Shown in pieces: positions 3,655 through 58,310 of a DNA stretch of 64,000 nucleotides. The translations under genes and the position numbers were made by a program. Source of the stretch: Candidatus Marsarchaeota G2 archaeon ECH_B_1 (GTDB lineage: Archaea > Thermoproteota > Thermoprotei_A > Marsarchaeales > Marsarchaeaceae); the NCBI GenBank assembly GCA_003019535.1, contig NEXG01000001.1, positions 168,153 through 232,152 of the forward strand, in the 5' to 3' direction. The notes beneath the pieces were generated by a model, which saw only the letters and a program-made list of their open reading frames with translations, had not been told where the DNA came from and did not search any database. Every line of letters begins with the position of its first letter. The first letter of the stretch is position 1.

Positions 3655-3825
3655 CTCCTCAGGCTTCAATTTATCGCTTAGAAAGCCTCTTACACTGTAT
3701 CACAAATTGGCCAACCAGGATAGCACCTCTATATATTATCCTTCACCAGGCATTGACATAAACATCCACAACTATACGTAAAACATTCTAGAGCCATCAC
3801 AGAACCTAAGCACCATATGCAAAGG

Positions 3826-3913
3826 CGCCGGCGCGAGGATTCGAACCTCGGACCGCTCGGTTTCTGCTATAGTTTAACAGCCGAGCGCTCTACCTAGACT
3901 GAGCTACGCCGGC
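3826..3913 (-). tRNA. tRNA-Asn (GTT) with one intron
   Basis: Acceptor GCCGGCG/CGCCGGC with discriminator G, D stem GCTC/GAGC, anticodon stem CTCGG/CCGAG, T stem CGAGG/CCTCG. The anticodon loop reads CTGTTA then A after the 13-nt insert is removed, giving anticodon GTT. Unspliced length is 88 nt, spliced 75. Confidence 0.95.
3862..3874 (-). other. 13-nt BHB intron at 37/38 of tRNA-Asn
   Basis: Insert AACTATAGCAGAA. The central helix is CTGT/GCAG (three Watson-Crick pairs and one wobble), bulges TAA and AAA, with a six-base loop and no inner stem. Cuts after the second base of each bulge give a normal seven-base loop. Confidence 0.9.
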
Positions 3914-16347: not shown

Positions 16348-16866
16348 ATGATTAGAGTCGAAAAGACCGGTGACGCATACCTTGTATTTGGCGAAGAAAA
16401 CGCTGAAACCCTGTATTGGGGTGAGTATTTCGGTCGACCCCTAAACAATTCGAAACCTAAAATAGGGGATAAGCTCTCACCCATGCGCCTATCAAAATAT
16501 GAAGTTCTTTATCTACTTGAGCAAGGAAGGGTTATCGTGGTAAAAGGAAACAGGAAACTGAACATAGCAAAACCTACTGGTAACAGTTTAACAGTTTATA
16601 TAATATACAAAGACCTCAGATCAAAAGGACTTATTGTCAGATCCGGGTTAAAATTCGGCGCAACATTCGCCGTGTATATTAAAGGCCCAGGAATCGACCA
16701 TGCCCCCTTCTTAGTCCAGGTCGTACCAGAAACCTATAGGCTAAGCGGCATAGAGGTGATACGCGCGGGCAGACTCTCCCATGGGACAAGAAAAAGATTC
16801 GTGTTTGCGACCGTGACGAAGCAAAGAAAACCAATATATATAACTCTAAGCTGGGTTAAAATTTAG
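16348..16866 (+). CDS. endA: tRNA-splicing endonuclease EndA
   Basis: A 172-residue enzyme that cuts bulge-helix-bulge structures in tRNA, rRNA and some mRNA precursors. The catalytic triad is present: Tyr110 (KFGATFAVY), His118 (GPGIDHAPFLV) and Lys149 (LSHGTRKRFVF). An N-terminal domain of about 75 residues precedes the catalytic domain. The size fits either a one-gene homotetramer or the catalytic subunit of an alpha2-beta2 enzyme whose partner is elsewhere. The odd intron positions in this window favour the broader-specificity alpha2-beta2 type (inference). Its substrates tRNA-Thr, tRNA-Asn, tRNA-Met, infB and cbf5 are all in this window. Confidence 0.97.
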   Translation: MIRVEKTGDAYLVFGEENAETLYWGEYFGRPLNNSKPKIGDKLSPMRLSKYEVLYLLEQGRVIVVKGNRKLNIAKPTGNSLTVYIIYKDLRSKGLIVRSGLKFGATFAVYIKGPGIDHAPFLVQVVPETYRLSGIEVIRAGRLSHGTRKRFVFATVTKQRKPIYITLSWVKI

Positions 16867-16935
16867 GTAGATGATGTGGCTCGAAAGTTCTGAGCACGCG
16901 GGTGCTGAACCCACGCAGAGCTGATACCAATTATA

Positions 16936-17028
16936 AGCCTCGGGCGGGATTTGAACCCGCGACCCACAGCTTACAAGGTTCAACCGGCTAAAGCCGACTG
17001 TTGCTCTACCAGGCTGAGCTACCGAGGC
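16936..17028 (-). tRNA. tRNA-Thr (TGT) with one non-standard intron
   Basis: Acceptor GCCTCGG/CCGAGGC with discriminator T, D stem GCTC/GAGC, T stem GCGGG/CCCGC. The anticodon arm is intact only after removing 19 nt after position 30, giving stem ACAGC/GCTGT and loop CTTGTAA, anticodon TGT. Unspliced 93 nt, spliced 74. It lies 70 bases beyond endA on the opposite strand. Confidence 0.95.
16979..16997 (-). other. 19-nt BHB intron at 30/31 of tRNA-Thr
   Basis: Insert TCGGCTTTAGCCGGTTGAA. The fold is outer stem GAG/CTT, central helix CAAC/GTTG, bulges AGT and AAC, inner stem CGGC/GCCG with loop TTTA. Standard cuts restore a fully paired five-base anticodon stem, which confirms the position. Confidence 0.93.
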
Positions 17029-17189
17029 TCACATGTTCTTATCTTCAACCTTTTTTAAAGGTTTACCCAATGCGTGATGCCCAAGTTCGAAGATTCAACA
17101 ACAAGTATACGAGACAAATGTTTGCCCTAAGCGTCATTATGATAGGTAACATATACCGGTACCTATTAGTTAGGTTATACCGTGATTAT

Positions 17190-56610: not shown

Positions 56611-56691
56611 TCAATACTCCACCTAGACTATATTCAAAGAAAATAGAAGTTATTTAAGTTTCTCTTATTAACCCAAGCGTAGAACATTCGA

Positions 56692-56776
56692 CGCCGGGGG
56701 CGGGATTTGAACCCGCGCGGCCACATGGACCACGGGCTCTCCAGGCCCGCTCCCTGCCAGGCTAGGAGACCCCGGC
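56692..56776 (-). tRNA. tRNA-Ser (GGA), overlapping the cbf5 stop
   Basis: Acceptor GCCGGGG/CCCCGGC, discriminator G, long variable arm (TGGTCCATGTGGCC region), anticodon stem GCGGG-type with loop CTGGAGA, T stem GCGGG/CCCGC. No intron. The first 15 bases are also the last 15 coding bases of cbf5, whose TAG stop is in the D arm. Confidence 0.96.
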
Positions 56777-57765
56777 ATCAACATTTATTGGTTCGAGCAC
56801 CCTTATTGGTGTTGCTACTATGCCACTTTCTATACCACGCAAGTCTTCAGCGTTCCTCAAACAGCGCACCACTTCTATAAGCTCTCCGTTTTCGGAGCAG
56901 ACAAAGGCTTCGCCTCCACTTTTTATGTCGTTCGATATACAAATCACGCCACGAACGCTGAGGGAAGCTCCCGTATAGAGGTTTTTCTTGGCCGATTCCC
57001 TTACGATGATTAAGGGCTTATCTACCAGTATTTCTTCTATTGGGTTAAGTACCTTAGTTAGCTCTGATGATTCTCCCGTCTCTTTGTAAACCAAGGTATA
57101 GTATGCTAGCTGATTGAGTGTCACAGTACTTGACTCATCAAATACGCCGCTCCTTATCCGTCTGAGTTCAATCATATTTATTCCCACACCGATGGCTTCA
57201 CCCACATCGAAGCATAGTTTTCGGATGTATGTTCCGGATTCAACATGAGCCTTAAACAAGACATAGTTACTATCTGATTCAAGTGGAATAAATGAGTATA
57301 TACGACGCTTTCTTATGCTACGCTTAACCGCTGATTTCATTGGTGGCGTCTGATAAATTACCGTTTCAAACTCCTTCATTATATTATAGACTTCTTTAAT
57401 ATCGATAGCCTCATGCAACTTCATTATCCCAACATAAACCTTATCCGTGTTCATAAGCCATTTAAGTAAACGATTGGCGGAATTCAAAGTAACAGTTAAA
57501 ACGCCACTAACAGGGGGATTTCCCCGTATTCCACTAGGGTCCCCCCGTGGCCAATCTTTTTCACGTTCAATAGGCGACCAACCCACGCCGTTACCTCATG
57601 GCTACTGGGTCCACGCGGCTTATCAATATTAATAAAACTCCTCATTAGCAGAGAGTTGACGTCAGAATATAATTCGCGGGGATTCCTATAATCCCAGCCA
57701 ACATCCTCCCTTAGCATCAAAAAATTATCCCTATCCCTTTGAACGGGAAGAAACACTTCTATCAT
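56762..57765 (-). CDS. cbf5: tRNA/rRNA pseudouridine synthase Cbf5, gene split by a 14-nt BHB intron
   Basis: Exon 1 (57765-57534) and exon 2 (57519-56762) join to 329 residues, normal for archaeal Cbf5, the catalytic protein of H/ACA RNPs. The catalytic motif reads IGHGGTL-D-PPVSGVL; Asp78 is encoded by G from exon 1 and AT from exon 2. The C-terminal PUA domain follows (about 235-320). Unspliced, translation shifts frame and stops 12 codons later without the catalytic Asp context. ATG 57765 overlaps the cmk stop by 4 bases. Crenarchaeal cbf5 genes are known to carry such introns. Confidence 0.95.
57520..57533 (-). other. 14-nt BHB intron in cbf5 mRNA
   Basis: Intron TGGAATACGGGGAA. Outer helix GGGGGA/TCCCCC, central helix CCCT/GGGG (one wobble), bulges AGT and AAA, seven-base loop GGAATAC. 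Standard cuts leave CTAG joined to ATCCCC, creating codon GAT. Length is not a multiple of three, so retention also shifts the frame. Confidence 0.93.
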
Positions 57766-58310
57766 TGTACAACCACACCCTTAATAGGCTTGGATTTTAA
57801 GATCGCACTAATGACCACATCTAGTAGATCTTGGAGGTCATAAAGTGACGTGTTGATAACCAAGTCAAAATTGCTTAGCAAATCCAAGTTAAACCCATAA
57901 ATCTTTTTGAACCGTTCCTTCTCGCTAGTCTCCCTCTGCACGGTTTCTTTTATTGCCTTATCTATATTTATAGACTCCCTCTCTGCGATACGTTTGGCCC
58001 TCACGTCTAAAGGGGCATTAAGGTATACCTTAAGCTCAGCATCTCTTACGACCCATCCAGTTAAATGACCCTCTATCACAACGTTGCCCTTCTCTGCCTC
58101 AAGTATAGACCTAGCATCCACTTCTCTATCAATAGAGAAGTCCTGCTCTGCCTGCTTGTTTAGACCAACTACATCAATGCCTTTCGACTGAGCCATCTCT
58201 CTAAACAACTGACCTGCCGATACAAAACGCAACCCAAGTAAATCGGCTATTCTCTTTGCGACGGTAGATTTACCGCTGCCTGGTGGCCCACTGACAGTGA
58301 TTACAACCAT
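57762..58310 (-). CDS. cmk: Cytidylate kinase
   Basis: A 182-residue P-loop kinase that makes CDP/dCDP. Walker A is VSGPPGSGKSTVAKRIAD; VIEGHLTGWVVRDAELKVYLNAP and RAKRIAERESIN belong to the CMP-kinase fold. The usual archaeal neighbours L14e and L34e are not present between it and cbf5. Confidence 0.95.
   Translation of the reverse strand: MVVITVSGPPGSGKSTVAKRIADLLGLRFVSAGQLFREMAQSKGIDVVGLNKQAEQDFSIDREVDARSILEAEKGNVVIEGHLTGWVVRDAELKVYLNAPLDVRAKRIAERESINIDKAIKETVQRETSEKERFKKIYGFNLDLLSNFDLVINTSLYDLQDLLDVVISAILKSKPIKGVVVQ

Follow-up and report, generated by a model that had tools for sequence, protein, structure and literature searches.

An intron of the crenarchaeal cbf5 gene has been known since 2002, and Yokobori et al. 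surveyed it in 2009 (PMC2738675). It separates the first letter of the catalytic Asp codon from the second, its published lengths are 16–44 nt, and its gain has been traced to the shared ancestor of Desulfurococcales and Sulfolobales (PMC2738675). Relaxed motifs are frequent among cbf5 introns and serve as substrates of hetero-oligomeric EndA (PMC2738675). In 2020, a paper still described the intron as crenarchaeal. Here we analyzed a 64,000-nucleotide stretch of archaeal DNA (the window), for which an earlier note had proposed a 14-nt bulge-helix-bulge (BHB) intron that splits the codon of the catalytic aspartate in cbf5. The same base of the same codon is interrupted, and we hold with very high confidence that this is a canonical archaeal cbf5 pre-mRNA intron whose excision by EndA and joining by RtcB would restore catalytic Asp78.

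The cbf5 gene and its split Asp78 codon

On the minus strand, the ATG at 57765 is the start of cbf5 and opens a frame with the N-terminal Cbf5 motifs through KKIGHGGTL. Without splicing, this frame then enters VEYGEIPLLVAF and runs into a stop, for a total of 89 aa, and PPVSGVLTVTL with the remainder of Cbf5 is found in a second frame. When 57520–57533 was excised (TGGAATACGGGGAA on the minus strand), we obtained a complete Cbf5 of 329 aa reading ...KKIGHGGTLDPPVSGVL..., in which the Asp78 codon is assembled across the exon junction as G|AU (Table 1). By direct reading, moving the 14-nt excision by one base replaces Asp78 with Asn or Val. The spliced protein passed the NCBI Cbf5 equivalogs TIGR00425 and NF003280 with 294–324 bits, compared with about 55 and 220–248 bits for the separate pieces. 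It contains the DKCLD, TruB_N, TruB_C_2, and PUA domains, with the catalytic Asp present, and its alignment with solved Cbf5 structures runs through the splice site with GGTLDP. A plain ORF caller would report two broken ORFs where one essential intact gene stands.

The intron proposed in the earlier note was exact to the base, and its claim that retention would abolish the catalytic site follows from the sequence. The note had also named a second intact cbf5 elsewhere in the genome as a reason to doubt the intron. We looked for one and found none in this genome (a draft assembly of 66 contigs, 93% complete), where the single TruB_N match, and the sole match to the TruB family, is the gene described here; cbf5 is hence single copy.

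Upstream, a cmk-like gene (57762–58310) overlaps cbf5 by 4 bases (ATGA, 57762–57765), which suggests cotranscription and coupled translation. At the other end, cbf5 finishes within the 5′ end of a tRNA-Ser(GGA) gene (56690–56777): its final codons and stop (GCC GGG GTC TCC TAG; 56762–56777, minus strand) fall there, and roughly 15 nt serve both as tRNA gene and as cbf5 coding sequence. RNase P cleavage of a joint cbf5/tRNA-Ser transcript would take away the cbf5 stop codon. The overlap is also found in the same-genus genome; in other members of the family, the tRNA gene lies 36–109 nt downstream.

Table 1. Features of the cbf5 intron locus and the EndA gene of the window
Feature	Position in window	Strand	Details and basis
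cbf5 exon 1	57534..57765	−	232 nt; residues 1–77 and first base of Asp78 codon; NCBIfam Cbf5 TIGR00425/NF003280 over spliced protein
cbf5 intron UGGAAUACGGGGAA	57520..57533	−	14 nt; same-site introns in relatives
cbf5 exon 2	56762..57519	−	758 nt; from second base of Asp78 codon through stop
Outer (exonic) helix, 5′ arm ACGGGGGGA	57540..57548	−	Folding
Outer (exonic) helix, 3′ arm UCCCCCUGU	57510..57518	−	Folding
Central helix, 5′ arm CCCU, exon 1	57536..57539	−	Folding and covariation
Central helix, 3′ arm GGGG, intron	57522..57525	−	Folding and covariation
5′ bulge AG^U	57533..57535	−	Predicted cleavage between 57534 and 57533; cleavage rule from PMC2738675
3′ bulge AA^A	57519..57521	−	Predicted cleavage between 57520 and 57519; cleavage rule from PMC2738675
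EndA alpha (catalytic) subunit gene	16348..16866	+	172 aa; PF01974; Aeropyrum EndA 3p1z_B, E 2.8e-37

RNA fold, conserved pairing, and splicing genes

In the canonical fold, two 3-nt bulges lie around a 4-bp central helix, the outer helix formed by ACGGGGGGA and UCCCCCUGU has 9 bp (one G-U among them), and the predicted cuts between bulge nucleotides 2 and 3 fall on the exon borders. The elements and borders given in the earlier note (CCCT/GGGG, with bulges AGT and AAA) are the ones recovered here, its GGGGGA/TCCCCC pairing being the inner 6 of the 9 outer base pairs. The minimum free energy (MFE) was −21.3 kcal/mol (z = −1.79), and 9 of 200 shuffles folded as well; as proof of an intron, a fold energy with this z score is insufficient. 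The MFE fold itself has a 1-nt 5′ bulge and a GUG/UAC stem, and the canonical two-bulge form, at −20.2 kcal/mol, lies about 1 kcal/mol above it. Because only 7 nt separate the 5′ bulge from GGGG, with space for at most 1–2 intron-internal pairs, the motif is relaxed and is best called bulge-helix-loop. The intron-internal helix is essentially absent, and an EndA of relaxed specificity would therefore be required.

The evidence that goes beyond chance is conservation as read from the genomes: an identical intron within the genus, introns at the same site in the order, and mutually compensating changes in the central helix. With all sequences treated as independent and relatedness ignored, 177 intron-bearing genes from the own class and other classes give 708 cells for the four central pairs, and 699 of these are paired, whereas 2,000 partner shuffles gave a mean of 681 and a maximum of 686. 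Examples of changes on both sides of the helix are the exon arm CTCT opposite GGAG or AGAG in the intron, CACT opposite GGTG, and CCTT opposite GAGG or AAGG; within the own family, CTCT/GGAG occurs in L005–L007 and CACT/GGTG in L004. Counted in the same way, without regard to relatedness, the flanking Thr codon is ACC or ACT in 176 of 177 intron-bearing genes but in 21 of 36 intronless ones, and the flanking Leu codon is CTA in 155 of 177 compared with 12 of 36. Beyond shuffles, covariation in the outer exonic helix was slight, as expected because of the amino-acid constraint on the exons; a clear signal comes from the central helix alone.

At the gene level, the genome is predicted to encode a heterotetrameric (alpha/beta) EndA. 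The alpha gene, whose nearest counterpart is the catalytic subunit of Aeropyrum pernix, lies in the same window as cbf5. A beta homologue of 191 aa (L206) is found elsewhere in the genome and has the same two neighboring ORFs on its sides in G000 and G002. Its assignment rests on a profile built from three proteins, which matches solved EndA chains, among them 2zyz_A (E 2.5e-11) and 3p1z_A (E 7.1e-8). The ORF that follows the beta homologue, likewise in G006, appears prenyltransferase-like from a reading of its sequence alone. The RtcB gene is on contig 19. Two tRNA genes of the window, both on the minus strand, have predicted introns: tRNA-Asn(GTT) at 3824–3913 (13 nt) and tRNA-Thr(TGT) at 16935–17029 (19 nt), the latter in opposite orientation to the EndA alpha gene and immediately downstream of it. 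With these two genes present, the splicing pathway is therefore expected to be in use.

The proposed course of splicing begins with a cbf5 transcript from the gene that overlaps cmk upstream by 4 bases. In vivo, exon 1 GGGGGA CCCU AG, intron GGGG, and exon 2 UCCCCC would fold into a BHB that is functionally a bulge-helix-loop, α2β2 EndA would cut each bulge after its second base, and RtcB would ligate the exons to form the GAU codon of Asp78. Translation of the spliced mRNA would then yield active Cbf5. The proposal that a BHB intron splits the catalytic codon (G + AT) is supported by protein continuity, conserved pairing, and single copy number, together with the genes for EndA alpha, the beta homologue, and RtcB.

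Relatives and rival readings

We compared the locus with its relatives. The same-genus genome G001 has an identical 14-nt intron, and its exon 2 is 96% identical. Every own-order genome read carries a cbf5 intron at the same base, 14, 16, 19, and 28 nt long in family f1 and 17 nt long in f2; within the order, the intron is inherited vertically. In the own class, we found 126 distinct intron-bearing cbf5 sequences, with introns of 13–67 nt, and 26 intronless ones. Outside this count of 126, an insertion at the same site was seen by eye in L144, L145, and L146 (family f13, genus g70), which have the downstream motif P-K-T-S/T-G instead of P-K-V-T-G and were missed by the motif search. Introns of 13 nt occur in L086 and L087 of the own class and in L274 and L276 of other classes. 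These rule out 14 nt as the shortest on record, and the present intron has a size close to the lower end of the range. Family f14 has 13-nt introns in one genus (L086, L087) and an intronless cbf5 in another (L063, L065), a contrast that could reflect recent loss from a minimal intron.

The assembly is a draft of 66 contigs and the cbf5 frame is truly broken, as would be the case if the 14 nt were a sequencing or assembly frameshift or a recent insertion in a degenerating pseudogene. However, the identical 14 nt stand in a second genome of the genus, in every own-order genome read the same base bears an insertion, of differing sequence and length, the two exons are intact in a single-copy gene, and the central helix covaries. 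We rejected this reading on conservation and give it next to no credence. Programmed frameshifting, or an excision slightly different from 57520–57533, might instead restore the frame. Frameshifting would leave a 4–5-residue insert in the GTLDP active-site loop, with Asp absent there, and the inserts of relatives (13–67 nt) have all remainders modulo 3, including in-frame lengths with internal stops, a pattern for which frameshifting gives no explanation. A one-base shift of the excision brings in Asn or Val, and the borders match bulge positions 2/3; we consider both variants very improbable.

The intron might also act as a regulated switch, with EndA availability or RNA structure setting the amount of Cbf5. 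It is kept at one site widely across the phylum, and its retention would give an inactive 89-aa product. Nevertheless, the intron is absent from several lineages, the sequence and length of its loop are free, and any function of the intron is called not known in PMC7714728. Its persistence is also explained by the need for exact deletion: the intron is probably locked in, with only an exact deletion leaving the GTLDP loop and an active essential enzyme. A regulatory role is possible but unsupported, and we judge the switch unlikely. The reading that we retain is an intron predicted to be removed by EndA and RtcB and probably kept at its site by this lock-in.

Wider distribution and comparison with known introns

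The earlier note correctly took cbf5 introns to be known in Crenarchaeota, and the position compared is the published site (PMC2738675). Its further claim that this locus extends the pattern held in part. The own class, represented by 229 genomes, fits the clade for which the intron has already been inferred as ancestral, and its intronless families fit Pyrodictiaceae and Ignicoccus, a match by pattern rather than by name; moreover, 14 nt is short without being the shortest. The extension is real only in other classes, beyond the window.

Among 299 genomes sampled across the phylum, many from other classes are also split in cbf5 at the same place. Base-by-base reading, which for most of these loci covered only about 110 residues of cbf5, gave 51 other-class loci with an intron at exactly the same position (13–38 nt), and inspection of L243 in family f34 brought the number to 52. 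By count of family labels, the same-site introns outside the own class span 28 families (within L219–L276, e.g., L272, L274, and L276). G241 is one of the genomes with this intron, and in its class split cbf5 matches were found in 20 of 29 good genomes. We found no report of this wider distribution in the open-access literature, subscription journals being outside the search.

Because the same-site intron occurs in 52 loci and 28 families of other classes, the published origin, in the forebear of Desulfurococcales plus Sulfolobales, looks too late. We lean slightly toward a single intron, at one base, that the ancestor of most or even all of the Thermoproteota already had, that dozens of families inherited (in some at only 13 nt), and that was lost on many occasions. 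Either one old gain with many losses or several gains at the one site could account for the distribution; because the exon sequence already fixes much of the paired portion of the intron, likeness among the introns says little about shared ancestry. With this comparison, the best-known mRNA intron of archaea has its apparent origin shifted from a single crenarchaeal clade to a much larger portion of the phylum. Its age, its repeated loss, and its lower size limit can be put to the test with genomes already available and a simple cleavage assay.

Compared with the crenarchaeal cbf5 intron (Aeropyrum, Sulfolobus, Desulfurococcus, and others; PMC2738675), the intron described here is alike in gene, base position, and BHB-type motif, in the predicted cut between bulge positions 2 and 3, and in belonging to a lineage with heterotetrameric EndA. 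It differs in its length (14 nt, compared with 16–44 nt in the published table) and in having almost no intron-internal helix, and its order is represented here by draft genomes only. With archaeal tRNA BHB introns, it shares the EndA/RtcB pathway and a similar size (11–175 nt for tRNA introns; PMC2738675); in contrast to them, it interrupts a protein-coding gene, and its removal would restore a codon. Gene, site, motif, and enzyme lineage are all already known, and the length is unusually short.
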